Assembly: GCA_903813345.2 (NCBI GenBank)
Contig: CAIIXF020000008.1
Coordinates: forward strand, 1,683,341 to 1,747,340
Length of the DNA stretch: 64,000 nucleotides
Direction: 5' to 3'
DNA from: Owenia fusiformis
Taxonomy: Eukaryota; Annelida; Polychaeta; Sabellida; Oweniidae
Below are positions 10,101-61,871 of this stretch, one piece after another; positions within the stretch are counted from its first letter, which is position 1; each line of letters starts with the position of its first letter. The notes below the pieces were generated by a model that searched no databases, had not been told where the DNA came from, and saw only the letters and a list, made by a program, of their open reading frames with translations. Both the position numbers and the translations under genes were made by a program.

Positions 10101-12769
10101 GCCGGGTTTGACTCGGCTAAAAATATATTTTTAGGGGTAAGTTATAAATCTGATTTTGACAATTCACTCACAAAATAAAACATATCTGAATCAGTGAATA
10201 TTCATGCCAAAATTTTGTGATTCATCTTTTATATGTATATGGTTTAATTCATGTATTTTTAAGCTATTAGGATCACGATTTAATCATGTAAGTGTCTGAT
10301 TCATCTATTGAATGGACAAGTAATCTAACCTTACATTGTTTCATAGAATAATTAACTGCTTTTGTCATTTTGAAAAACAAAGTAAAATGTTTTATTTGTA
10401 TGTTATAGGAAAAAGCCACAAAGTGGAACACAGATGGAGATGGCATTGACGGATTAACAACCAATGGGATTCTCATAATGCGATCCAAAGGTGGCTTTTC
10501 TGACCAATCAGAACCGGGGGTGTGGCAGGAAGTTTCAGTGGGGGGAGGAATCTATGCACTCAGGGAGTCGAGGAGTACACCTCAACGCAGTAGCCTCGTA
10601 AGTTCTAAGTTACTATTACAATGGTGATCATTATGAGGTCATTTATATTATTTTTATATTTATTGGTTATTTTCTTTCTTTTAATCTAAGGTGTGACTTA
10701 TGTACATATTGGCACTGACCTACAAGTCTGTGTCTATGCCTTAATGGGAAGCATCAAAGGCAAGAAGAACAAAGTTATTATTATAATATACAAGGTTATT
10801 TGACAGTATAATTATAATGTCCACAGTTATTAATTATAAGTCTCTGTCTTAATATTAGGCTATACTGCACTAGTAGAACCATGAAGTCAATTTATGTTGG
10901 AATATAGTGTACTTATATTGAGACTAAAGTGTAAGAGATCCACCTTGATATCATCTTCACACATAGCCAGGCAAGGTTTGTCCGATTCCAGCCAATCCGA
11001 AGATGCTAGTTCACAGATTGAAATTGATACTTTGCCTTCTTGACCCTTGAAAAAGGTTTCATTGAAAATATGTTATTTTAGTGATATTGCATCTTTTAAA
11101 TGATTTTGAAAAAATACTTGGCAATTTGTGAAAAGAATTTAAGCCCAAGACTCAATGCATTGTGATATGACCATTCCTTTCAGGCGTTGTTTCCTAAAAT
11201 TAACACTCAATGCTCCACATCTCAAGCAAACTTTGGAAAGCCTTCAAAGAATGATCATTGCACTGAGTCCATGGCTTAAATCCTTAAATCAAAAGAACTC
11301 ATTAAGCACATCTTAAATTCAAGTCATTATTGCTTTTAAATAGACGAAATATTGAAGTCAAAGTGACTGACATTCATCTGTGGGAATATATAGCTCTGTT
11401 TACATATGGAAATTGGGATGGTTCAGGATAATGGATGTTCTGCTATATTTGTAGGTAGAGGATGAAAATAACATATTGGAAGATGGTACGCTCATAGATC
11501 TATGTGGCGCCACATTACTTTGGAGGTCTGCTGAGGGACTCAAGAATGTACCCGTAAGTCAACATTTCAATTATTTATCAAACCATCATAACTGTGCTAC
11601 CAGATTTGAAATGATTGATGAGTTGACGACTCAAAAATGAGAACATCTATTAGATTTTGTTCGAATATGAAACTCTTTAAAAATGTTAAATGTATGAGAC
11701 GATTTTTTCTGAAAAGCCCAGTAATTGTTTTTTAAAAATTGTATGTTGCATTGTATTTTATACATTTTTTCAATGTTGCAGAGTCAATCCCAGCTGCAGA
11801 GCCAAGTTGCAGCAATCAATGCTGGCAGACCGCAGTGCCCAGTGGGCTTAAATACTCTAGTTCTTCCAAGTAAAAACACTATATCAATCTCAGACAAGCA
11901 GCCCTATGTTTATCTCGAATGTGGCCATGTACATGGGAAGCATGACTGGGGGGACAAAGAGCATGATAATTCCAAACGAATGTGCCCCATGTGTAGGAAG
12001 GTATGTTTAGTTATATTGCTTTAATTGATATGCGATTACAGTAAAACTTGTGAAGAAGAATACCTCCATATGGGAAACACTTCAAAAGTCCCATTAAAGT
12101 CCTATTGACCCATTAACTTGAAATAGCATGAACCTATTGAACACATGCCATACATTGGAACATTATTTTGATGTTAACAAAGGTGTTCCACTTAACACAG
12201 GTTGTAATTGAATTTTAGTTAATCTCTTGGAAATATCAAGGGCCCTGATAAAGTGTGGGGTTGTATGGCTGTATGGGTTCAATGACTTTTGAATATTTGC
12301 ATTACTTTCAGGTTGGTCTGTTCACCAAGTTGCTGCTGGGAAATGAGACAAGTTTATATACCAGCAGAGATCCCCCCACACATTGTTTCTGTCCATGTGC
12401 TCATATGGCCAGTGAACACACAGTAAAGTAAGGATTTTTTAAAGAATTGACTGATATTACAACAAGTTGTGTCTCAGTATTTTCAATTAAAATGAAAGTA
12501 ATGGCACATGATAATTGTATATGCTTGGGTCATTACAAATGTTTATGAAGCCAACAATGTTGATTGAAATGATAGTTTTTAAGTAAAATTATCCTGAAAT
12601 TGAAGTTCGTATGAGTATAGGTTGACATTTGTATATTTCCAGATATTGGGCCTCAATAGCAATTCCTCATGGTTGTCATGGTTTCCAAGCCATGTGTCCA
12701 TTCTGTGCCACCCCATTGGACGGTGTCCCTGGGTTCACTAAACTCATCTTTCAGGACAATGTGGATTAA
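7129..12769 (+). CDS. PELI: Pellino E3 ubiquitin-protein ligase (5' end incomplete)
   Basis: Pellino proteins are RING-type E3 ligases that bind phosphorylated IRAK kinases through a forkhead-associated (FHA) core and add ubiquitin chains in Toll/IL-1 receptor signalling. Exons: 7129-7767, 8351-8480, 9529-9630, 9939-10136, 10409-10597, 11455-11553, 11782-12000, 12312-12427 and 12643-12769 (TAA). All junctions are GT-AG and phase-consistent. Family blocks seen in order include PVMYGELVILG, NGVKPLRKHV, SYTLSRNQ, VEYTHDDDTDMFQIGRSS, STISRFACRI, ARIYAAGFDSAKNIFLGEK, DGLTTNGILIM, LIDLCGATLLWRSAEGL and RPQCPVG. The C-terminal RING-like region keeps its Cys/His positions: CGHVHGKHDWG, CPMCRK, CPCAHMASEH, CPFC. 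The first recognised exon adds about 205 Ser/Gln/Pro-rich residues before the point where vertebrate Pellinos begin. It has no in-frame ATG before MYGELVILG and starts in phase 2, so a start exon upstream is missing. An AATAAA overlaps the stop codon; another lies near 14195. Confidence 0.96.
7985..8125 (-). repeat. Hairpin-ended short interspersed repeat, copy B
   Basis: Read on the minus strand it shows a TTTGTTACA box followed about 80 bp later by ATATGTCACCACTTCCGACA, matching the family at 3000-3112 and 54325-54455. It lies in a Pellino intron. A further partial relative may lie at 7818-7900. Confidence 0.55.
8141..8221. repeat. 29-bp tandem repeat, about three copies
   Basis: The core CATATTATATGGGAACACCT recurs at 8141, 8170 and 8199 with a 29-bp period and nearly perfect identity. 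It lies in the Pellino intron shortly before the 8351 exon. Confidence 0.8.
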
Positions 12770-22900: not shown

Positions 22901-25900
22901 AAGTATTGGACGTCATGTATACACTCAGAAGATATGTCAGTTTTATGGACTGGAATGAATTCAAGTGAAATTGAAAAATAAGAAAAAAAAAAAAAACCAG
23001 AACAACGGCAACGCCAAAGCGTAGCGAATCCCATCGAACAGAAATGGCTGGCATTTTTACAAACAAAATATATAGCAAACATCATAAAACAACACACCAG
23101 AAAGGCCACCATTTTCAAAATGGTTGCTCACTAGCCAAGTTGTCATCAGAAGAAATAATATGCTTTTAAGTAGCCACCTATAAAATCTTTGAAAAATCGC
23201 ATACATGTACTTGTAAAATAACACACATAAAAATGGTGGCCATTTTTCAAAATGGCTGACTACTCCCCAAAGTTTTATTAGACAATGTGCCATGCTTAAA
23301 GTATTCACATATCAAATATGAACAAAATTGCTCCACTACTTTTCGAGTTATAGTAAAAAATGTAAAAATGACAGCCATTTTTATAAAATAGCTGTCTACT
23401 ATCTGAAGTGTCATGAGACAGGGTGCAAGGCTCATGAGTATTCACATATCAAATATGACCAAATCGCTTCACTACTTTTCAAGTTATAGTAAAAAACATA
23501 AAAATGGTGACCATTTTTCAAAATGGCCACCTACTACCCAAAGTGTCATTAGACAGTGTGCCATGCTTATAGTATTCACATATGAAATATGAAACATACC
23601 AAATATGAACAAAATCGCTTCACTACTTTTCGAGTTATAGTAAAATACGTTAAAATGGCGGCCATTTTTCAATTTTTTTTTCAAAATGGCCGCATTCTAC
23701 CAAAAGTGTCATAGGACGGTGTGCCATGCTTATAGTATTCACATACCAAATATGAACAAAATCGCTCCACTACTTTTCGAGTTATAGTAATATAGGTTAA
23801 AATGGCGGCCATTTTGAAAAATGGCCGCCTTCTACCAAAAGTGTCTTTAGGCAGTGTGCAATGCTTATAGTATTCACATACCAAATATGAACAAAATCGC
23901 TCCACTACTTTTCGAGTTATAGCAAAAATCGTAAAATAACGAGTAAAGGCCGCCATTTTTCAAGATGGCTGCCATGTGCTTCTTTAATGTCTACATTTAT
24001 AGCTTTATTAATGTCCTTCATAATTTTTTTACATTTAAAACATATTGCTATTACAGTTTTACATATTGCACCTAAATTACTGTAAAATCGGCACTAAAAT
24101 GGCCGCCATTTTGAATTGAGCGGCCATTTTGATAATCGGCTTTTGAGCAGAACTTCTACCCCCATAGGGTATATGTGTACAAAATATGAACAAAATCGGG
24201 CCAACGGTATTTGAGTTATCGCCCGGACGGACAGACGGACGTACGTACGGACGGACGGAGGCGTTCCCTATATCCCTCCGAACTTCGTTCGATGGGATAA
24301 TTAAACATACCTATTTCAGGAGCAACTGTTAGCACTGTATCCGCCACTTCAGTTTCTTGTTTGGCTTTTTCTGAGATTTCCTCATCCTTTTGTGCTATTA
24401 ATTGTTCATTTGACTCAACTGGCTCTTTTGCAGTTTCTTTATCACCTTTAGATTTCTTTCTTTCCCTTTCAGAGTGTTTCTTTTTATCAATGTCTTTCTT
24501 TTTGTCTGATTCTTTCTTTTTGTCATGATCTTTTTTAGAGTCTTTCTTTTTTGAGTCTTTTGATTTTGATCTTTCATGATCTTTTGCTTTGTCTGATTTT
24601 GATTTGTCAGTGTCTTTCTTACTTGATTTGTCAGATTTAGGGTCTGTGTCCTTATTTGGAGTTGTCTGTTTTGATGGGGGGTCAGCAGTAATAGCCTGGA
24701 GCTTTTCTAACAATTGAGCAAGCCTGAAATGTAACTTATTTATCAAAAAACTCCAAAATTCAATGTATATGATGTAATGCAATCAATAATTCTCGGCTGG
24801 CAGTGACCTGAATGAAACTTTGTTAACTTAAAACACTTTAATTACTGGTCCACAGCAGATTGGCAGGCAAGTTATACATGGATTCAAAATATTTGGCCAT
24901 TAATCTATTAATTTGAAAAAAAATATATATACGCGATTCAGATTTTACTTGACTTAGCTGAAATCGAAGTTTTATCAATGACAATATCAAAGAAATTTTG
25001 TCTACCATCTTAGATGATGCTAAATCATACTTCTGTAGACCCGTGTTAATGGCACTAAACCTGTCCTGCTACAGTTCTTCATAAAGAAATATTTGAAAGA
25101 TGGGGGACAACTCTGATACCTATTTGCAAATGATATAAGTATGCAAGCTTGTGCTTAATATCTTAGTTAATCAGCAAATTCAGTCATTCATACCATGTTG
25201 TAAATGTTTCTGTGTTCATCCCAAGAAACAGTGATAAATCATCCGCCATTTGTTGACGTGTCTTCTTATTGGCCACCATGACCATGATGTAATCTGGCAG
25301 CTCATCATCTGTAACCATGATACAATATTATTACTAACAATTATGAAATATTGAACCAAGAGTACCCATGAGAAGTAATACATACTACTACATAGTTGCC
25401 AAATGACAATTACCTGAAATATATAGATAAGCACTAACCTTTAGTGGCTGACATTAATTTCACATTTAAAATCGTATTAATGACCATGAAAGCTCCCTTA
25501 TCAACAAAACTGTAAATCATTTCCAATAGTCAGAGGGAAGTGTGGAATTCAGGGTAAATGCAAATAAAAAACCTACCAACATATGCTCCCAGTTCTACCA
25601 GCTTTGCTTTTATTGCAGACTGAAAATAAATGTTCAAGAAATAAATGAAACATTAACAAGATGAGTCAGTTAAAAATTATGAAAACACAAAGAATGTTAT
25701 TTTTTGTGATCAACACAATGTTGTATAGTGAGGTTTTTGTCCGGATGATTTGTGTCTGCGTTTGTATAATCGAATAAATTAGTACACCCCACATACATGT
25801 AGGTCAAGTCAGCTGAGATGTAGTTTATATTCTCTTGTTTAGTTTAAAAATGACGTTCATGTTTAAATGGCTTATTACTATATGTTTTTAATATTCTAAT

Positions 25901-27188: not shown

Positions 27189-42122
<14,934 letters not shown>

Positions 42123-47810: not shown

Positions 47811-48516
47811 TCACTTACTTGTCTTCCTGTTGAGGACATCTTTGAAATACTTGGGCCTGAGGTACCCTTGCTTATCACTTACTTGTCTTCCTGTTGAGAA
47901 CATCTTTGAAATACTTGGGCCTGAGGTACCCTTGCTTATCACTTACTTGTCTTCCTGTTGAGAAAATCTTTGAAATACTTGGGCCTGAAGTACCCTTGCT
48001 AATCACTTACTTGTCTTCCTGTTAAGGACATCTTTGAAATACTTGGGCCTGAGGTACCCTTGCTTATCACTTACTTGTCTTCCTGTTGAGGACATCTTTG
48101 AAATACTTGGGCCTGAAGTACCCTTGCTTATCACTTACTTGTCTTCCTGTTAAGGACATCTTTGAAATACTTGGGCCTGAGGTACCCTTGCTTATCACTT
48201 ACTTGTCTTCCTGTTAAGGACATCTTTGAAATACTTGGGCCTGAGGTACCCTTGCTTATCACTTACTTGTCTTCCTGTTGAGGACATCTTTGAAATACTT
48301 GGGCCTGAAGTACCCTTGCTTATCACTTACTTGTCTTCCTGTTGAGGACATCTTTGAAATACTTGGGCCTGAAGTACCCTTGCTTATCACTTACTTGTCT
48401 TCCTGTTGAGGACATCTTTGAAATACTTGGGCCTGAAGTACCCTTGCTTATCACTTACTTGTCTTCCTGTTGAGGACATCTTTGAAATACTTGGGCCTGA
48501 GGTACCCTTGCTTATC
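47811..48516 (-). repeat. 64-bp tandem array of the Tpt1 exon end plus its 5' splice site, 11 copies
   Basis: Eleven copies of an exactly 64-bp unit. The most 5' copy (minus strand) encodes the Tpt1 C-terminus GDKQGYLRPKYFKDVLNRKT; the other ten lie downstream. Each unit contains ACAAGTAAGT, a near-ideal 5' splice site, at 48453-48458 and every 64 bp down to 47813. Because 64 is not a multiple of three and each unit begins TGATAA, reading stops at the first junction. Copies differ at a few positions only. Confidence 0.95.
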
Positions 48517-51500
48517 GCCAGAGCTTAGTATCACATTGTTTGCAGACAGGTGGAATTTCAACCCATCTGGAATAAAAGAGAAGACATAGATGTTAAACAC
48601 ATGTACAGTAAAACGAAATGATTCAAACTGAGCTGAGGAGGGGTATGTAAAGTTATTTGAGTAAAAGAAAGGTTGTCCCCAGATTAATGCATAGAGAGGG
48701 TCAGGAAAGTACAAGGGATGAACACCAATTCCTCACCTGACATGGCTTTATGTAGATCAATAAATATGAGAAGGTCACAGCTCCCTCGCATGCCACTAAT
48801 TACACCGGAGTCACTGGGCTCCCCTGGAGCTAAATGGATGTGTTGGCGGGACATACGGCTTAAGCCCTACAGAGGGAGATACATTTTGGTAAGTCATGTA
48901 AGTTGTATATTTTGCCATTTAGACATTGTGACTGTTTAAATTCTCCACAATTTTTGATTTTTCAAAAACAAGATCTATAGACAACAAATTGTAGAATGCA
49001 TTGAAGAAGTTTTAATGTACATACATTGAATGAAATAATAAATTCTGATTGGTCCAAAGACAAACACTCTTGCACCATTAGATCAAATAAATGAGATACA
49101 GTATTTCTGAATATATTAAACGATACATATTGAAATTGCAAACCTCAATATTCCCAAATTAAAATGTGTATAATTGAAAAAGCCCATCAACAAATATTTA
49201 CCTGTGTTTTTATTTTGTCCCATGACTTGAGGTAAGTTCCATGGACAACAGTGGGATAAGTGGAGGGATTCTCTATTGGCTTTAGATCCAAACCTTCTAC
49301 CTGCAATTATAATGGACATAACTGAATGTTTTGTGTTTCTTGACCATATTTGGTCATGAACTGATCATACCGTATATGGGGATTTTTATTAAGTCTCCTC
49401 CTGCAATATTTATCAACGGTTTTAAACAATATCATCATTTTCAAAGACAAAATCATGAATTAAGAGGTTAAAGTTCAAGAATTAACAATAATGATAAAAC
49501 AGTAACACAAATAAATCTTATCTTTATATAAATCTTAAAAGGGATGACGTTTGATTTCGTTTAGATTGGGGACATTGAAGCATTTGATTTGAAAGATTTT
49601 GCAACATAACATTTAATGGCCACGTTGGTGAATAATGCAAACACCAATCCTAGCTTAAATTGTAAATAGACACATGAACAATTGTACTACAATGTATAAA
49701 AACTAATAATTAATAGCAAATGTAAATGATATGCTATTTTTTTATGTACAGGAATTGCAATGAAAATAACAAAAGAAAATTTGATTTCAGATTTTTAAAA
49801 ATTTGATTAAATGATACTTAATTATCTATCAACTGTATATGGTATATAATATTTCCAACTATTCAAAATGTCACTTCAATTTATTACAATAGACATATAC
49901 TAATGTGGTTTAATTGTGAGGTAAAGAACACAAGGTATTTTTGCAATATAACAAGGTTTTGAGCTTGAACTTAAATAGAACTGAGAAGGAAAGATGTATT
50001 ACAGTAAGATATTAAGCCTATGAAAGTTATAGAATCTCCAATTTAAAATGTTAAGGTGTACACATTACCTCTAAAGTATGGCCCTGATTTGCTCGGATTT
50101 GCAGCTTGCCGTTTTTGGGATGCTTTTGAATTGCGAATCTTTGTTTGTCGTTAGACTCAACCACTCGCACAATGTCTTCTTCACTAACTCCCAGGAATTT
50201 TTCAGTTGTAAGAATGTCATCTATGTACAAGAATCCGCCTACAAATGAGGATATATTAGAACAAATCTGATGATATAACAAGTATCCAAAATGTTTAATA
50301 ATTTTGACCTTGGCAGAAGTAGATTATATATTATCATAGGACTATTTTCAAAAAAAGTAATTTAAAAAGACCAATTTTTGAGATTAACTGATTGTCATTG
50401 GCCTTTTCCAAACCTGACATTCTTGTGACCCATATAATCTGCCTGACCTTACACCTTCCTGACTGACTTGTTATGACTAGAAGTGGCCAATCAACTTGTA
50501 CTTGTACTTGGGTAACTGCTGACAAATCAGACTATACTATAGTGATTTAAAGCGTTACCTTCAGATAATTGAAAGCCCATCTTTTCAGCACCATGTCTTA
50601 GCAGCCAGGATAATGATTTGGAAATGGATACATCATCCTAAATTGAAAAATTAAGAATTACATCTATGTACTGCCAAAATAATTCAAATTGCATCAAAAA
50701 TTTTGGTGTACAATACCATTTCATCACCATGTCGTTAACACTCGCAAAAACAATTTTGTGCTGCATCAGGGCTAATTTCTAGTGTCGAAAAGATGCAGAA
50801 TGTTGGTTTGAAAAAAATGAAAGTATTCAGCAAGTATTTTTGGCATTTTATCAAAATTATAAAATTTCTTGGTACCATCTCTTACATATATTAATATAAT
50901 ATACAATGGTGTACTGCCTATGACTAAAACCAAACTAATTATGTTTCTTTAGTTCTCCAATTTAGATTTCCACTTACCCGTTTCTTTTGAGCCTTTGCCC
51001 ATACAATGGGCTTCTTGTCCCCAGAATAGAGATCCCAATCAAAGCTTTGACGCTCATCATTGGCTATGGCATATTTGACATCTTCAATTGTAAAACCCTG
51101 GAGGTCGCGACAGAGCGCTAGAATCTCATGTACGTAGGCAGAACCATCTAAGTGACAAAAATATGTAGAACATATAATAAAGTTATATGTATATTATGTA
51201 AATGCTTTTTCATTAATACATTACGTTTAAATACATGAATTGTAAACTGTGGGTAAAATTTGATAATCAAAATCTGATTTGCCAATGTCAATAGAAAATC
51301 CCCACTTATCTTAGAAAGGATCAAAGACTGGGTAAAATTATTTTTTAACTCTTAGGGTTGTCAATAAAGATCACACATGACCTAGCTTACCATTGACCAT
51401 GCCAAGGGGTAAAGCAAGTTCAATATTTACAACAATAATGTTGCCTCACTATAACTTACATGTGACATTGCTTCAGCACATGTGGTTTAAAAGAGACATG

Positions 51501-54500
51501 AAAATATTCTCTGACAGTACTGAATACATACATACCTTCATAAACAGTTATCCCTAGTTTTTCAGCACCACCTTTTGTCAACACCCAATGTAACGTGCTC
51601 AGCAGTTTCCTCCAAGATGTGTCCTGAAATATATGAAACATTGTAAGAAATACGAAACAAAAATATTACAGCTCATCCTTATTTATTCAGTTCATAGGGA
51701 TTGTTCAACACAAGCCTAGTTCCATTTTCCTTACCTTTCGTGGGTCCCTGTAGCGGTTATCTTTATAAGCTTCCCGACTACGCTGCCTCCCATAACCTTT
51801 ATATGAGCTCCCACCCTCTCCGCTTTCCCATTGGCCAAAATCTGCATCACTACTCTGACTGTTTCCGTTCACGCTACCTGCTTTGTCTTTACCATCCCAG
51901 TGGTCCATTTTATCTGGGATGCCTCCAGGGAACCCTTTAGCACCATTACTTGAGGTGGGGGAGGAGGGATCCTCCCAGTACCCCATATCGTTGTCAGAAG
52001 GTTTAGGAGGTGGGTCCCTAGCAGCCTTCAGCAGGAGAGTCTGAGTGAATGAGTCGGTCAACGTGATGTAGTTCTCGCCAGAATCAGCTGAGATCACCCG
52101 TTTAAGATCTTGGAGTGTAAAGTCAGAGTAGCATTCTAAGATATCGTTCGCACTTACGAATCCATCTGAAAAACAAAACAAAAATCTTTTGAATCTAGTC
52201 TTCTATAAATAAAAATGTTATAAAAAATTATTTATCTAATTCATTTCATGATTTATGCATCAGTATATCCATTTAATTTCAGAACTCAAAGTGATTAATA
52301 AATATTCATAATTAACTGTGAAACTAAGTAGGTATTAACTAAATGATATTAACTTGGACTAAATGATATCTTAGTCTCACCTTGGTTGAGTTTGAAATTC
52401 TTTTCTGATATTCCATCCTTGTAGAATAGAAAGTTGAGAATCTTGGGAAGTTTGACATCAGGATCAACCTAAGAACAAACAAAATGAGAATTAAATATAT
52501 GATATTTAATATGACTGACATTCAAACATTGCTTATTGGGATTACCCATCATTTTTGTGCTTGTACATGTTGGCCATTATCTTATTCCCATAATGTTTTG
52601 AGAAATTATACAATTCATTCTATTGAGGGAAATACAAGTAAACTTTTCACATGTGATATTACCCCAAGCTCCTAAATAGTAAAGGTAGTAAGCATCGTAG
52701 AGGATTATCATTGAATAGTTGATGTCACATGACCTGTGCTCAACCAATCACAGACTGAGAAACATGACAATGAGCTTATAATAATAGTCATACCTTTTCC
52801 TTCTTTTTCTTTTTCTGAGGAGTAGGTTGGTTATCTGTACTGCTTTGGTCTGAGAGGGGGGTGTCTGGCACTAATTCTGATTGCTGCTGATGCTTATAGT
52901 TATTTCCATAATCATCACTCTGATCTGATTCACTGCGTGCCTCATAAGCTTTGTTCTGAAATAACAAGGCATTGTTTCCATAATCATCACTCTTATTTGA
53001 TTCACTGCGTGCTTCATAAGCTTTGTTCTGAAATAAAAGGGCATTTTTGGACACATAGTACTACAGGGTGGTCCAAAAAATGGGACACTCTTATTTCAAA
53101 AATAAATATCGAATTTCTTAAGGAAAACATGCCAGTTTGCCCTTCTTTTCTTATATACTCTTGCAAGAGTTGTGCTCTTTTAACTTTAACTGATGCTATA
53201 GAAGCATTATACCACAAAAGGAAACCTTTATTTTCTAAAGTTTCTAAAGACTTCTATTAATATCATTCATAGCTCATATTCACCTTTTTCTTCCTGCGAG
53301 ATGTGTGGTGATCACTGTGTTCAGATTCTGTATCATCGCTAATATCTGAGCGAGGAGATGTGAGAGGACTAGGACTCGGGAGTAAGCCATTCTCTGACTC
53401 TTCAGCCTTAAGTACAATGAAATAAGTACAATCATTACTTAAATACAATGAAATATGTATAATGGTATATAACAACAGACTTACATGAAAACTAATTTAT
53501 ATATCCATGGAAAAGTATTACATGTGTAAATAGGGATGACTATCCAATAAAAGTCAAATACAGAATTTTTGGTTACCATGCATGATGATTGCATTTTCCT
53601 ATAATTTTTTTGTTTATTTTGTATGACCTATTTTCGAAAATACACTTTTGACTTACATCATTTTCCCGAGCTGGTTGAAGTGAGTTGTTTACTGCACGTA
53701 GAAAAATTTGGCCTGTTTGCGAGATTTTCTCTAGAATGAGACCATTGTTACTGCACGCCACGGCATTGTGGATGTCGCCCATCTTATAGCAGGAGAACTG
53801 CTCGTGAGCCTGGAAGTCACCGACAGGTAATGTGCCATCTATTGGAGAAAACAAACAAAATTCATTAGACTGATATGAATTTATATTGATATGCAGTTTG
53901 ACATGTAAAACAGAAAAATGTCAAGGTTGATAACAAAATTCCCCAGTTGATTTTCATTTTAGACAAAATGTAATGAAAAAAAACATTCTGTATTTGATTT
54001 GTACCTACAAATGCATTAAAATACAGCCTTATTTCATGTATCTTCACATCTAAACCTCTTACATCTAACCAATCACATGAAATACAAAAGTAGGTATTTC
54101 CTCCTCTTCTGTTCACTGGTACTGTAGTATAACTCAACTTACCATCATCAAGAGAAAGACCTTTAGATTCTGCCCCACCCCTACACAACAGGAAGTCCAG
54201 AGTTTTGACAAGTTTTTGTACCTTCTTATCAGGTTCACCCTAATAAATAAACAACATGAATCAGGTTTACCCTAATTAATAAAAGCTAATGTATGTACAT
54301 ACAAGGCAGTAACATGCAAAATGTCACAACTTGTAATTTGTTACAGACACCATATGCCAAACAACGAATGCCAAACACCAAATGCCAAACACTGTCCACA
54401 AAAAAGCTGGAGACAATAACAATGTGTCACCACTTCTGGTGGCAGCATAATAATTGACCAATACAGCAACATTTATAGATTGACTAAATAGATAGTGAAC

Positions 54501-57500
54501 ACAACACACCTAGATCATGTGTGGATGAAACTACATGTGATATGTGGAGTGATATTCCCATGCTCACAGATATATCAAATAATGGAAATATGAACATCCT
54601 TATACCATATAAGGAACCTTTATATTGAAATCATACCTTATTAGGCTTTATACTGATGGGCACTTTCTTTGGTCTCTCCATAGTTTTTTCTTCTTTCCTA
54701 GCCTCTTCTTTAAGAAGTTGCTGGACACCAGGTGATATTGGGATGAACAATGAATTATTCTTCTGGAGATTATTAGTTTGTACTGCACTGTGGAATTGTT
54801 GCTGTTGCTGTTGTTGCTGCTGCTTTTGTTGTTGCTGCTGATGTGTTGTTGTTATGTTGTTATGGTGACTGTTTGCTGCTATAGAGTTGCTGCTGTTTAC
54901 AACTGGCATTTGGCTTTCAGATTTGGGCTGAAAATAATGCAAATGAGTAAAATGGGTTTGATTAAACTGCACTTTGGTCCACTGATTGGTTAGTTACCAA
55001 ATGCAAATCGGTAATTTCAACACAAAAACATGAACCAGTTCCAATGTTGAATTAGTAACATGTTGAATTGTTATCATATAGGGCGCTACATAGTACTGCA
55101 GCCCCCCACACAGGTTTCAACAGCTCAATAGATGACGAAAATCTCTGAATGACTTCAACTAAACAACTGATATTTTAAGAACGTATCAACATACCTCTTG
55201 CACCACAACTTCTGTTGGCCGAACAACAAGGCGCTTCGTGGATGGATTGTGGTCAACTTTGAACGAATGGTCCTCATCTTGCTTAACAACTCTAATAATA
55301 TCTTCTTCAGTATAGAGATCACCGTATTGTGGTAGAGCTAGAATATCACTGATGGGAACCCCACCATCTGAAACATGACGACAAAACTTTTCATTTATCG
55401 TTATATTTTCTGAAGGTACTTCTGTGCTTTCACAAGTCGGGCTGAGAACCAAAAATTAATGAAATGTCATCATCAAATAATAAAAATGTGAAAATTTCAC
55501 CTATTTCATTAATTACTGGTTACCAAAATCATGACAACAACAACATGTTGGATTACATTAAGAATCTTTGCATACTTAGTATTCACTACAACCTATTCGA
55601 GTTTAGTGTACAAAGATGTTCTAAAAATGGTCAATTACATTATATAAAACCTGTGTTCAGCGAAAGGTGTTCATAATGTTAGGTATTCAAATTAAGACAT
55701 CTGATAACAAAGGTAATCATGGATGCTATGCTCCTCAGCCAAATCCTGATTCAAAGACCAATAGTTCTAGATACATGTAGTAATGAAAATATGCCATGCT
55801 TAATTGCAGTATACATTAACAGCTCCAGTAATGAGAAGTCGAATGAATGGGCATAAATACTGCTTAATGCAGGTAATGAATAAGGTATGAATAACAAAAA
55901 ACAATGTACAAGAATTACAGCTTTCATTTAGAATACAAATTATTCATCTGCATATACCTGTAAGTAGGGTATATGAATACATTTATCTGTATCCTAGCTG
56001 TAAAGGAATGTCCTTTTGTTTTGAAAATATCCCATTCATATTCATGGGTAGATATCAAAAAAAAAAATAATTAGGAAAAAGAAAATTTTCTTTGAGGGAT
56101 TGAAATTTCTTTAGAAACAATTTTGCTACAAAAAATTTGACACCATGGAATATCATCCTTTATGGAACATACCTTCATAGACGGTTATGCTTTTTTCTGT
56201 AGCGCCACCTTTATACAGCAGATAATTGAGCACCTTTGGTAGTTTCTTGTCAACGTTCACCTGACTCATCGCCTGAAACAGAAGAATGCTGAATAGTTTA
56301 TGTAGTGTTATATGTATCGCTATTATATATAGCATATATTGCGGAGATTTTTGTAACATGTAGGGCAGAAAAAACTTATACATTGTATGTAGAGCGAGAG
56401 TAGAATTTTTAAGATTAGTATAGAGAATAAAGTGTATATTGTTAGAACATGTAGTGTAGAATGAGAGGAGAATCTCATTACATAATAGTGTAGAAAATAT
56501 AGTGTAAATTGTTATAACATATAGTATAAAAATATAATGTTAATTCATACTATATATTTTTTTGCATGTGCCATAGAATTAGTAGTATATTAGTAAGAAT
56601 TGTAGCTAAGAGTTGTTAGTACATTATAGTGTATATTACAATGAGGAATTTATTGTACATTTATGATAGAATCGTAGTGTGGAATCAATAATGCACGTTC
56701 ACATCATAGAAAGATTAATGAGCCATTTACATAACAAAATCTCACTACCTGATTGCGATTTTCAGAACCGTAACCATTTGTTTCATGCCAAATACAAAAT
56801 GCCAAACTATGGTCATAAAAATAATGGATACGTATATTAAAGGCTATTTTTCATAAAATCTGCCACGGTTTTAAATTAACCTGAAACATACTTTGCTACA
56901 TAACAATTATTTTGAGAATATTATTTTTGGATACTTGTATAATTTGAGAGGATAAATAATGGATAGATATGAAAACATGAATCAAATGAAGTGATAATGA
57001 CTAATTCATGACATGCTAATTCTAATGCTTCACCTTCTAAAATTTATCAAGAAGGGATGGGGTTCAACAGCTTTTGATTCCAAAACTTGCAACACCCCTC
57101 CCCCCATAACTACCACCTAAATGGTGGCTCAAAATAATTTTTTTTGGGAAATATTATGCTCCCTACATGAATCGAGTTGCATTTTGGGGTAAATATCACC
57201 TGTGATTTTTTTCAAATTTTTTAGTCAACTTTTAGGGGTCCCCCACAGCCTTTAAAGTTTGCCCATAGGCTTAACATTAGGAGTGTCACATCGGAGTTAA
57301 CTGGTATTCTGTCTATGTACAAGCAGTTTTATTAAAGTATGTTTTACTTCTTCTACAAGAATGTCTTGCATACCCTACTCCCCCTATTCCCAACCCTATG
57401 TTTGAGACCTGTTAGGGCAAGAAACTCAGAGAACTGATGCATCATGAAATTCTAACTATAAAGACATAACATCCATTTCAAATTATAACAGAAAGCATAA

Positions 57501-60500
57501 ATTGTCTCCATGACATTGGAATCATAAATTATTAACGCAAATCACTTGTTATACAAAACATACCCAGTGTCCGATACAAGAAGATGTGATACAATAACTC
57601 GATACATTAACACCAATCCTTTAGCGTGTGTTTATCTCATTTCAAATAACAATTGAAGAACATGTCCAAAGAGAATGCTGCTGCTTCAGTGTGTCTATGT
57701 AATACTCTTGCTTGCAGAAAACAAAACAGTTAAAGGTGCATTATACCAAAGGTTTCTCCCCCAGACAATCAATGATGTCCTATTGTTCTTGCTCATATAA
57801 TATCTAACATACCATGGATATATCTTGAGAATAACTTTTGGGCATATTATTGCCGAAATATTGAAATAATCAACAGAACAACCAACCTCCAGAATTAAAC
57901 ACAATCGATTCCTCGGCTAGCGAGGGGAATCCCCATTGAGTCACACAACCGCCCACAAGCGCCTTGAACCAGGCAGCTAATCAGGTTCATGATAAACAAA
58001 TCCAACGACCAATCAAATAACAGGAGGACTTTCCCGGTATATTCAAACTTCAGATTGAATTAAGTTCTGCGAAAATAATTAGATCGGCCAGCACAATCGC
58101 AAAAATTTACACTGAAAAAAGGCGATTTGGGACTTCTTCTTTGGTAAGTAGATGGGTGAATATGTGGTGAAACTCAATATGCAAAAAAGTCCAGAGGGGT
58201 CTTGATTGTGCTATCCTATAGCATAGTGCCTCTTTAATATATCACAATGTCAAATGTTTTTTACTTTTTCCTTTATTTTCATATGAAAATTTTCCTTCAT
58301 ATAACCTATAAATTCAATCAAGCTACATTAAGATTTATGATTTTTAATAACTATTTGATACAAATATACCACTAGAAAGTAGTAACTTCATATTGCATAA
58401 TCAATGGTGAATTTGATAAATTGATCCGTAACCGAAATTTATAACTCGTAATAATACAAACAATATGATAGAGAACCAATTAGCTACAGCGACAGACAAA
58501 ATACTATTACTATTGTACAGCAGTATTTTATGGATTAATACAAAAATAATGGCCTGTTTCATGAAAATCCTTGTCATAAATATGAATCCCTTGATTCGGT
58601 ATAAATGAGCAATTATAAAAGTGTAACAAACCATTGCCATGGCAATGCCATAGGAACGAAAATCTGAGGAGAAGGAGATGCAAATTACATGTAGATAGAA
58701 GAAACTGAATTCTGAAAGTAGAGAAATGTATCAGAGGAATAACATTCTCTTTTTCAATGGTAGATTTACTGTTACATGTTTGTCTGTGATGAATTTGTGA
58801 TGAATTGGTCTGGGTTTACTTGCTAAATATGTTGATTCTAATATCATTCTATCACAGATAGGCAACATCGTGGAGTAATTGGGGTTAGTTTGACACATGA
58901 AATGGTATCATAATTTGGCAAATGGTGAATTAGCGTCATTTCAGCGTATTTGATCATGCTGCAAATGGATTGTGAAATAAATAAAAATTGTTCTGTGAGG
59001 AGGGTACTTAGGAACATCTCTAAACACAGGAATACCCCCAACTAAAGCTTTCAAAATCATTATTCATTTTTAAATTCAAGTTCTTCATGATTTTACTTTT
59101 TAAAATTTTTATTTACAAATTGGTACCACCTAGTTGCTTGAACAAATATTGTGAGTTCAAATCTAAAGTCATTTGAACTTCTGAGAACTTGTAGATAATT
59201 TTGAAAAAAAGTTGGTCAATTTGAATTTGAAGCAAATTGAAATAAACTTTTTGACCTTGAGAAGATCAGTGAAGGTCAAATCTCTCTTGTAGATGATTTT
59301 GAAAAAAGATCTGGTCAATTTGAAGCAAGTTGAAAAAAGACATTTTTGACCTATATTTGAACGAACTTCTGAGAACTTGTAGATGATTTTGAAAATTTTG
59401 AAGTCTAAACAGTACTTCTTAAGTTATTGGAAGTTGGAAGAATTTGTTACAGACACCAAACGCCAGACACCAAATGCCCCTGCAAAAAAGGTGGAGATGA
59501 TGACAATTTATCACCACTTTTGGTGGTGACATAAAACTTTCTTTTGTCAAACTACTTTGGCCTAATATCATCCCCTTTTAGTTAAAGTTGAAGAAAGAGG
59601 AATTGTATTTGTTACTGTAGTCTTGCTTCAAGCTGTTTGACTACCACTCAATAGAGGAAATATGGGGTCTTAATACAAGACTAATGTTACCAGACAATTG
59701 TGCATATATAAGTCGGTTATCCCTAACATTAGCATAATACATACATGTTCACAGAATATGCAAATAAACCAAGATGTGCTAAGTAAATAGCATACAAGGA
59801 AAAAGTGTTGACTTAGTTTAGTTTACTCAAACATTTCTTTATGTATATTGGTTAAATGAAGTTATTAAAGTTAAAGAAGGGAAGGAGGTGGTTCATGTAA
59901 TTGGAAAGTGGGATCTTGAAAAGATAATTCAGTGAAAATTTCACAAGAAAAATAAAAAGCCATATAATATGTAAAAAAAACTGACCCACTCCACTGTTTG
60001 TTTCTGCAATAAAAGTAATGTTTTCCAATTAGAAACATTGTACAAGTTATGTTAGAGAAATATTTTACTTTTAAATAACAAGAAAGCCAATGGCATCTCC
60101 ATTAACATTTCAAACCCAAGCACTTTGATTAGTTAATGAGATCAAATGAAATAAGAGTAATAATAGAGTACTATTCTCTATTTAATAGTTTCTATATCAT
60201 AATACATAAATACCAAGTTCAGAGAATGGCATCGGGATTTGTTGTATAAATGTTGATAGTTGTAGAGTAACTAGAGACGTCCTTACAAATGACACAAACA
60301 GGATAAATAGATACATCAATCAATAGGAAAAAATTCCTATAAGGAATGTCTGAGTTTAAAATTTCCTTTTCTCAAATGGCCAAGCTAAATGTACAATGTG
60401 CTGTACTTTATATGCATTTTTTTATTATACATTTGTATAAAAACATGTACATGGTCATGTACAGTTGTACTAATGATTGAAGCTACAGTATTTCCTTCGA

Positions 60501-61871
60501 AAGTTTATGAAACTAGATGAAGACCTACAATAGAAGCAACAAATCAAAATATTATGTTGAGGTGTTTCAAAATAATATTTAATGGGTGCTACATTGCTGA
60601 GGTCATACTTTCTGGCAAATACCTCAGATACATTGAACGGTTATAATGTTTACAATATGGAAAATGAAGATAAAAATGAAGGAATAAGAAATAAGAAGGC
60701 AAAAATATAAGATATGACAGGAACTATCGAACCCATTCAAAACAATTTAGCCAAGCAGTTTATTCAATTCCAAGATTTCATGAGAATATTTTCCAACTGT
60801 ATGATCATGAAAAGGTTTACTATGCAGTGTTTGAAACTCACAACTGCCTGGCTGCTTATAATAACCAGTTTTCACTCTTGGTAATGAGCTCGGGAAACAT
60901 TTGCCTATTAGGCAATGGACTGAATGGTAAATTGTGGCAATCGTGTTCCAATCACACCTTTGTATCTTGTTACATTTAAGTACAATCTGTACATGTACTT
61001 TGTTTGGTTATTCCATATTGATGCATACCTGATAGTGAACAGTGATACTAACAGAGTTCATGAGATGGTTAAAGTAACCCCACAAGAACATTTACAGGCT
61101 AGACTCTATAACTAAATATGGGGATTTAATATAATATGTTATACTAGAAATACCTGATGAATATTTTTATAGGATATTAAATTCATCCTCTTGTTAACTT
61201 TATTATTCAATATTTACTCAAGCTGTAACTGTAACCCACATTTATGGGGTTTGAGCATAGCCTTTTCGGAGAAAGTCCCTAGGTAGGTAGGGGTAACCAT
61301 GATCTGTTTACCTTTGGTACCCAATAACAATTATGAAACAGAGTACGACCTCAATAACAATGGGGGAAACCCCACTCTTTACATATACATGTACATGTGT
61401 AACTTGCTCGACAATTCACTTTCCTTTTGAAGCCAACTTGAAAAATGAAAATGATGAGTTGTGAGATACATTGAAATCAAATCAAATGTAACATCAATCC
61501 TAAGCAAAACATAATGTATCTTTTTATACATATAGGCCCTTATATTCATCCAAATATGAAGGCTCACACACTGACATTTGGTTGGAGATTCTACAGAAAA
61601 TTAATTTTTGAGATCCCTGGGAATTTTGCAGGTCATCATCATTTGTTGACTACTTATTTATCAAGATAGTATATCAAAGATACACTGAAATAACCACTGA
61701 AACAGCAGGGCTTTATGAAAATAAAAGTTTAGCTGTGCACCAAATGCAAATGAAAATGTCAAATATGAAAATTGAAGTTTTTTTGCAAAAAATCATGGAG
61801 GTCAAACCCACCTTCTTTTTCTCCCCTTTTTTACCCTTCTTATCGGGATGGCGTTGCTGGTGACTCGCCAT
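48451..61871 (-). CDS. TRPT1: Multi-module tRNA 2'-phosphotransferase (Tpt1/KptA), five N-lobe copies
   Basis: Tpt1 removes an internal RNA 2'-phosphate with NAD+, classically after tRNA ligation. Exons, high to low: 61871-61812, 56272-56173, 55367-55195, 54927-54637, 54239-54143, 53838-53657, 53406-53284, 53027-52794, 52468-52381, 52165-51735, 51623-51536, 51147-50978, 50637-50559, 50238-50069, 49300-49202, 48866-48737, 48566-48451 (TGA). Phases agree at all 16 junctions; about 876 residues against 200-250 usual. Residues 1-20 are basic. N-lobe-like modules lie at about 21-111, 209-301, 421-490, 594-679 and 680-762. Linkers hold a poly-Gln tract (112-208), a Ser/Asp-rich region ending in Lys runs (302-420) and a Gly/Ser/Asp-rich stretch (490-593). 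Only module 5 has SLSWLLRHG (Arg693, His694) and LQIRANQGH (Arg754). The C-lobe supplies SRQHIHLAPGE, SGMRGSC (Arg822), KFHLSANNVILSSGD and LRPKYFKDV. Arg693-His694-Arg754-Arg822 correspond to the catalytic tetrad, so activity is expected. The first exon is the least certain. Confidence 0.88.
50559..51623 (-). other. Adjacent N-lobe modules 4 and 5 of the Tpt1 gene
   Basis: Module 4 (exons 51623-51536 and 51147-50978) reads LHWVLTKGGAEKLGITVYEG then DGSAYVHEILALCRDL and FTIEDVKYAI. Module 5 begins SLSWLLRHGAEKMGFQLSEG and continues GGFLYIDDILTTEKF in the 50238-50069 exon. The first half-exons of modules 3, 4 and 5 are 88, 88 and 79 bp; those of modules 1 and 2 are 100 and 97 bp. All end in phase 1 at the same Gly codon. 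Module 4 has Thr-Lys where module 5 has the catalytic Arg-His. Confidence 0.85.
52794..53027 (-). other. Tpt1 linker exon with duplicated splice acceptor
   Basis: A 72-bp in-frame tandem duplication covers the acceptor and first 24 codons: ATTTCAG then AACAAAGCTTATGA occurs at 53027 and again at 52955. Using the outer AG gives 24 extra residues (NKAYEARSESNKSDDYGNNA and LLFQ); using the inner AG skips them with no frame change. The exon encodes a Ser/Asp/Gln-rich linker ending in a Lys run between modules 2 and 3. Confidence 0.8.
54325..54455 (+). repeat. Hairpin-ended short interspersed repeat, copy D
   Basis: TTTGTTACAGACACC, repeated ATGCCAAACA blocks, GCTGGAGACAATAACAATG and a terminal hairpin CACCACTTCTGGTGG. 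It lies in a Tpt1 intron, antisense to the gene. Confidence 0.65.
56273..61811 (-). other. Tpt1 intron 1, no genes recognised
   Basis: Long AT-rich interval between the short first coding exon and the first N-lobe exon. Apart from one hairpin-ended repeat (59447-59535) no gene or large element was found. A segment near 57880-58100 is slightly richer in CpG and has CCAAT-like and GTTGGT donor-like sequences, so an alternative first exon there is possible. Confidence 0.45.
59447..59535 (+). repeat. Hairpin-ended short interspersed repeat, copy E
   Basis: TTTGTTACAGACACCAAACG, GGTGGAGATGATGACAA and the hairpin TCACCACTTTTGGTGGTGAC followed by ATAA. It is the shortest and cleanest copy of the family in this window. 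Confidence 0.7.

Follow-up and report, generated by a model that had tools for sequence, protein, structure and literature searches.

Tpt1/KptA enzymes, called TRPT1 in animals, are made of an N-lobe and a C-lobe, and one active site is built by residues of both (PMC6333775). According to the same source, a tetrad of residues (Arg18, His19, Arg68 and Arg121 in the CthTpt1 numbering used here) is essential for activity, Arg68 and Lys11 of CthTpt1 sandwich the nucleobase, and the best fold match of the N-lobe is the winged helix of La, an RNA 3'-end binder described as being without the Tpt1 active-site residues. TRPT1 is 253 residues long (PMC7955679), and a motif list for the human protein gives HGT, HLA and NGV for the lobe that holds nicotinamide adenine dinucleotide (NAD+). 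In viruses, KptA occurs joined to additional domains, for example as KptA-Nudix, but the added domains described in PMC9503650 are other enzymes and not repeated N-lobes. Here, we describe a Tpt1 gene with a different layout, found in a 64,000 bp stretch (the window) of contig CAIIXF020000008.1 of the annelid Owenia fusiformis. In our judgement, it very probably encodes five N-lobes (M1 to M5) and one catalytic unit as a single protein.

The gene occupies positions 48451–61871, is read from the minus strand and was modelled as 17 exons. All 16 introns are GT-AG with matching phases, and the spliced frame is 876 codons without a stop, followed by TGA, corresponding to a protein of 98 kDa. Intron 1 is 5.5 kb long, while introns 2–16 range from 111 to 805 bp. 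The splice sites, the open frame and the five stretches of the whole protein that match the Pfam family PF01885 bear out the coordinates, strand, exon number, five modules and single C-lobe given in a preliminary description of this locus, and a single transcript over all 17 exons would be expected. Exon 1 and its junction, across the 5.5 kb intron, are the least certain part of the model, because translation could also begin at Met22 in exon 2. The exons are as follows (values after PF01885 and PDB are E-values for the module alone).

61812–61871, minus strand: exon 1, initiator Met and a Lys-rich N-terminal stretch, amino acids (aa) 1–20; in-frame ATG, donor AAG|gtgggt, phase 0
56173–56272, minus strand: exon 2, first half of M1 (PF01885 8.3e-6; PDB 7yw3 3.7e-5)
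55195–55367, minus strand: exon 3, second half of M1 (module aa 21–111)
54637–54927, minus strand: exon 4, poly-Gln linker, aa 112–208
54143–54239, minus strand: exon 5, first half of M2 (PF01885 2.4e-3, below cut-off)
53657–53838, minus strand: exon 6, second half of M2 (module aa 209–301)
53284–53406, minus strand: exon 7, Ser/Asp-rich linker with a basic run at its end
52794–53027, minus strand: exon 8, Ser/Asp-rich linker containing a 72 bp duplication, with a Lys-rich end
52381–52468, minus strand: exon 9, first half of M3 (PF01885 2.7e-4, below cut-off)
51735–52165, minus strand: exon 10, second half of M3 and Gly/Ser/Asp-rich linker, aa 450–593; holds Met510 and Met536
51536–51623, minus strand: exon 11, first half of M4 (PF01885 7.6e-5, below cut-off)
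50978–51147, minus strand: exon 12, second half of M4 (module aa 594–679)
50559–50637, minus strand: exon 13, first half of M5 (catalytic), with Ser685, Lys686, Arg693 and His694
50069–50238, minus strand: exon 14, second half of M5, with Arg754 within IRANQGH (M5 PF01885 7.7e-26)
49202–49300, minus strand: exon 15, C-lobe (NAD lobe), HGT motif
48737–48866, minus strand: exon 16, C-lobe, tetrad Arg802 and HIHLAPG
48451–48566, minus strand: exon 17, end of the C-lobe and stop codon

The unit made up of M5 and the C-lobe (residues 680–876) is, by its sequence, a canonical TRPT1 with a complete catalytic unit. It matched PF01885 with an E-value of 6.7e-62, residues 680–855 covering positions 2–177 of the 177 in the profile, and in a PDB search it found the solved TRPT1 chains 7yw3 (4e-57; query 2–194 of 197 on chain positions 28–221) and 7yw2 (3e-54), with which it shares the Arg-His, IRANQGH, HGT and HIHLA motifs. 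Among the PHROGs families, only phrog_5470 (RNA 2'-phosphotransferase) was matched. When aligned to CthTpt1 (6e3a; residue numbering from PMC6333775), R693, H694, R754 and R802 correspond to the tetrad residues R18, H19, R68 and R121, as had been proposed for M5 in the preliminary description, and S685 and K686 occupy the places of Ser10 and Lys11. The HGT and HLA motifs of the NAD lobe are kept, and NNV is found where human TRPT1 has NGV. The two-lobe layout of this unit is also that of the bacterial and fungal enzymes (6e3a and 7yw4). What differs from all of these is the remainder of the protein: the animal TRPT1 has one N-lobe in about 250 residues (253 and 249 in the solved chains) and the bacterial and fungal enzymes likewise have a single N-lobe, whereas five N-lobe stretches, four of them additional and separated by long linkers, were found here in 876 residues. 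The departure from the compact single-N-lobe form therefore concerns the layout and not the catalytic unit.

The four modules ahead of this unit are, on the profile evidence, diverged Tpt1 N-lobes. PF01885 was the first family found with each module alone, with M1 passing the Pfam gathering score of 26 and M2, M3 and M4 falling below it at 18.4, 21.5 and 23.3 bits. With profiles built from the other four modules, each of the five scored 42–79 bits, a score reached by none of 2000 shuffled sequences in any case, and all ten module pairs gave z values of 9.7–22.4, with none of 500 shuffles as high. A profile of M1–M4 that excluded M5 was searched against the 177 635 distinct sequences of the PDB set, and its top matches were three eukaryotic Tpt1 chains (5e-9, 8e-9 and 8e-7). 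The next match was 8prj ('v31Bagel8') at 0.0036, and a further Tpt1, 7kw8, which is archaeal or bacterial (the kind of organism is not shown in the match), came eighth at 0.11. In PHROGs searches with M1 and M4 as queries, M1 had no match and M4 had three weak ones, the best to a family of unknown function (0.019), then phrog_5470 (0.057). The shuffle controls and the PDB ranking rule out chance similarity. An unrelated winged-helix family was also rejected, as no other Pfam or PDB family matched as well among the matches listed, and no La family appeared there for M1–M4. Profile comparison thus gave no sign of the unrelated fold that would have told against the original assignment, and a Tpt1-like fold would be expected for M1–M4.

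None of M1–M4 has the Arg-His dyad or the NQGH motif. In alignments made with three MAFFT modes, the residues found in M1, M2, M3 and M4, respectively, were Lys, Arg, Lys and Lys at Arg18; Gly, Gly, Asp and Gly at His19; Lys, Lys, Lys and Ser at Lys11; Pro, Val, Pro and Leu at Ser10; and Arg, Arg, Lys and Trp at Arg68. The HMMER alignment instead placed a Tyr of M1 under the Arg and a Gly under the His. The pairs seen at the Arg-His site depend on where the gap is placed, because M1–M4 each have one residue more than M5 at this point. The replacement pairs listed in the preliminary description (Tyr-Lys, Cys-Arg, Tyr-Lys and Thr-Lys) hence stand as far as the loss is concerned, Arg-His being kept in no placement, but the exact pairs hinge on the gaps, and those listed represent a third placement beside the ones of MAFFT and HMMER. 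Five positions (D, L, G, G and D) are invariant in all five modules. As the tetrad is essential and Arg68 and Lys11 sandwich the base in CthTpt1, M1–M3 have lost residues that catalysis needs yet may keep part of the base pocket, while almost no RNA-contact residue is left in M4. The base-pocket argument calls for caution, as RslTpt1 with Ala at the position equivalent to Lys11 is reported to have near normal activity in vitro.

The exon structure points to the origin of the extra modules. All five begin at a phase-0 intron and in all five a phase-1 intron splits the codon right before the same Gly, so tandem duplication of a two-exon cassette is indicated, and the four copies ahead of the catalytic unit would have arisen in this way. 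The one-residue insertion beside the Arg-His site is common to M1–M4 in the three MAFFT modes. In an N-lobe tree that took in 6 of the 16 prokaryotic/viral Tpt1 loci and is indicative only, M5 grouped with nine canonical N-lobes, and a branch with support 88/91 separated this group from M1–M4. The shared insertion and the split in the tree favour a single degenerate ancestral copy over four separate losses. M1–M4 probably descend from one copy that already carried the insertion and lacked both the Arg-His dyad and NQGH.

It was considered whether the locus might comprise two genes, one for an upstream multi-lobe protein and another for an ordinary TRPT1 starting near exon 13. AATAAA or ATTAAA hexamers are present in 9 of the 16 introns, including intron 10, which speaks for two genes. 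There is no in-frame Met in exons 11 and 12, nor in exon 13 before the Arg-His dyad, and the only in-frame exonic Met residues between Met260 and Arg693 are 510 and 536, both in exon 10. Neither hexamer occurs in the 340 bp of intron 12, and the best donor that a start exon within it could use scored 1.1, compared with 2.9–7.2 for the 16 modelled donors, on weights that we set ourselves from general knowledge. This low score is compatible with an unmodelled start exon, since the best chance donor in 15 stretches of 340 bp from intron 1 ranged from none to 4.3. The phases agree at every junction. Together, these observations support splicing of M4 to M5 and make two genes very unlikely.

Repeats were seen in two parts of the gene. 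A tandem array of 64 bp units (47811–48516; 11 copies, 97% matches) starts inside exon 17 and continues beyond the stop codon. Copy 1 is the coding end of the exon and ten copies lie past the stop codon; each repeats approximately the last 21 codons and has a donor-like GTAAGT at its end. The 72 bp duplication (52903–53045) spans the start of exon 8. As the splice acceptor is included in the duplication, the first 24 residues of this exon could be skipped in frame.

Our preferred reading, which we rate at a probability of roughly 0.55, is a functional TRPT1 preceded by four N-lobes that are dead in catalysis and serve as docking modules. The C-lobe would hold NAD+, while the Arg-His dyad and Arg754 of M5, together with Arg802 of the C-lobe, would hold the RNA by its 2'-phosphate, which would then be transferred to ADP-ribose. 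M1–M4 are unable to complete an active site and, carried on flexible linkers, would most likely serve to dock the enzyme to RNA ends or to a partner made of RNA and protein, though this is conjecture. That the extra lobes recruit in some form is the likelier case.

Several results weigh against this reading. M1–M4 are acidic, with isoelectric points (pI) of 5.6, 5.5, 4.6 and 5.2 and net charges of −2 to −4, whereas the two eukaryotic N-lobes of solved structure that were compared, 7yw3 and 7yw4, have pI values of 10.0 and 9.0 and a net charge of +3. The comparison also covered M5 (pI 6.3, charge −1) and, of the 16 bacterial/viral N-lobes, seven (pI 5.6–9.8, charge −2 to +4). Simple RNA binding is therefore weakened, and of the proposal in the preliminary description that there are four non-catalytic RNA-binding or scaffold copies, the non-catalytic part holds, as four copies without Arg-His and NQGH precede a complete unit, but the RNA-binding part is weakened by the pI values. 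A profile of ten bacterial/viral N-lobes missed M1–M4, which scored 1.5, 1.0, 3.9 and 7.1 bits, equalled by 86, 105, 6 and 2 of 2000 shuffles, respectively. This profile drew on 10 of the 16 prokaryotic/viral loci (15 plus one viral), with L006 cut at its stop and the cyanobacterial L010, L011, L014, L015, L017 and L018 excluded because they looked like near-duplicates on visual inspection, and among the 1504 open stretches of the window it found only the two exons of M5 with an E-value below 1. The kinship of M1–M4 hence shows chiefly in comparison with M5 and with eukaryotic TRPT1. In the reverse direction, the result was weak but positive: the M1–M4 profile gave the ten bacterial/viral N-lobes 2.3–14.0 bits, eight of them above all 300 shuffles, and hhalign of M1–M4 against these N-lobes returned a probability of 61% (E-value 8e-5). 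The N-lobe tree is also made unsure by long branches, as the program itself warned.

The acidity of M1–M4 would fit with extra modules that bind protein partners only, for example tRNA ligase or stress-granule ribonucleoproteins (RNPs), leaving RNA recognition to M5 alone. So would the near absence of RNA-contact residues from M4 and the fact that the equivalents of Ser10, His19 and NQGH have been lost. We regard this as possible but somewhat unlikely, given that M1–M3 retain Lys at Lys11 and Arg, Arg and Lys at Arg68, the base-sandwich positions of CthTpt1, and that the fold of the Tpt1 N-lobe is closest to an RNA-binding domain, that of La (PMC6333775). It overlaps with our preferred reading, which covers docking of RNA or of RNPs. 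The strong divergence of the copies, their lost active-site residues and the low-complexity linkers could alternatively mean that exon-pair duplication left them behind as neutral remnants without a role. This seems unlikely for four copies that have all remained open and in frame across about 670 aa, have usable splice sites, keep the five shared positions and still match the family profile. As both lobes of Tpt1 supply one active site, tethered dead copies could also compete with M5, occupying the C-lobe in its place until displaced. The architecture alone speaks for such autoinhibition, and the long linkers and the strong divergence of M1–M4 make it quite improbable.

A more specific form of RNA or RNP docking, which we put forward only tentatively and think doubtful, is a multivalent reader and eraser of RNA ends. 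Here, M1–M3 with their base-sandwich pair would hold or scan RNA that has a 2'-phosphate or a terminal one, and M4 would act with the charged linkers to bring the protein into an RNP. The one active unit would then remove the 2'-phosphate or ADP-ribosylate the end. Human TRPT1 ADP-ribosylates 5'-phosphorylated RNA in vitro (PMC9458441). CNP, CLP1, RLIG1 and Trpt1 are presented in PMC13247085 as a putative yeast-like pathway, for whose full operation in animal cells that source reports no evidence so far. If the reader/eraser proposal were true, this putative animal pathway would gain a dedicated substrate-selecting enzyme.

All matches in the 498 Mb assembly obtained with PF01885, the M5 and C-lobe unit, M1 and M4 as queries fall at this locus, which therefore probably holds the only TRPT1 of the genome. 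A second, ordinary Tpt1 was looked for with the PF01885 and M5 and C-lobe queries and none was found elsewhere in the assembly. Searching exon by exon has little power for copies that have diverged, and of the extra modules M1 and M4 served as queries; with M1, pieces of M5 and M3 were recovered only at E-values of 0.03 and 0.15 while M2 and M4 were missed, and the M4 query found only itself. Animal pre-tRNAs are sealed by RtcB, leaving no 2'-phosphate. Matches to RtcB, RLIG1, CNPase and CLP1-type proteins were found in the genome, the stretch matched by RLIG1 carrying one flagged stop, so enzymes able to make and seal 2'-phosphate junctions appear to be present. The T4-type ligase family PF09511 had no match here, but 14 control genomes likewise gave none, so this negative is uninformative. 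That four N-lobes were added to one retained TRPT1 gene suggests that recruitment or the choice of substrate has been under selection. M1–M4 could be used as bait for a substrate or partner of TRPT1 in animals, and the locus would be a clean case of exon-pair duplication turning an enzyme lobe into non-catalytic modules.

No account of a Tpt1 with several N-lobes was located in the titles and abstract starts of the papers listed in searches of the open-licence PubMed Central literature, in line with the preliminary description, whose author knew of no described Tpt1 with this layout. These searches covered papers and not animal protein collections, in which the same layout may be sitting unnamed. 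A mussel gene annotated with PF01885 is among the strongly changed genes tabulated for a transplant experiment (PMC11817969). In 198 genomes of one bacterial phylum, 16 had a Tpt1, with no second N-lobe match among the best candidates scored; one of the 16 was split into N-lobe and C-lobe pieces and two matches were weak. In another search, Tpt1 had a single N-lobe in each of seven genomes, and the one Tpt1 found in a viral collection had 34% identity. One bacterial match (G103:C121:3343-3837) lies inside an open frame of 669 aa and is a possible fusion, and the weak matches in G080 and G025 are in open frames of 368 and 387 aa.

Elsewhere in the window, an open stretch at 24219–24782 (minus strand) has a very high content of Lys, Asp and Ser and had only a weak Pfam match below the cut-off. 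Another at 32241–32561, with no Pfam match at an E-value of 0.01, may resemble kynurenine 3-monooxygenase. An exon at 11725–12021 (plus strand) encodes a Pellino RING domain (PF20723, 2.9e-28), Pellino being an animal family.

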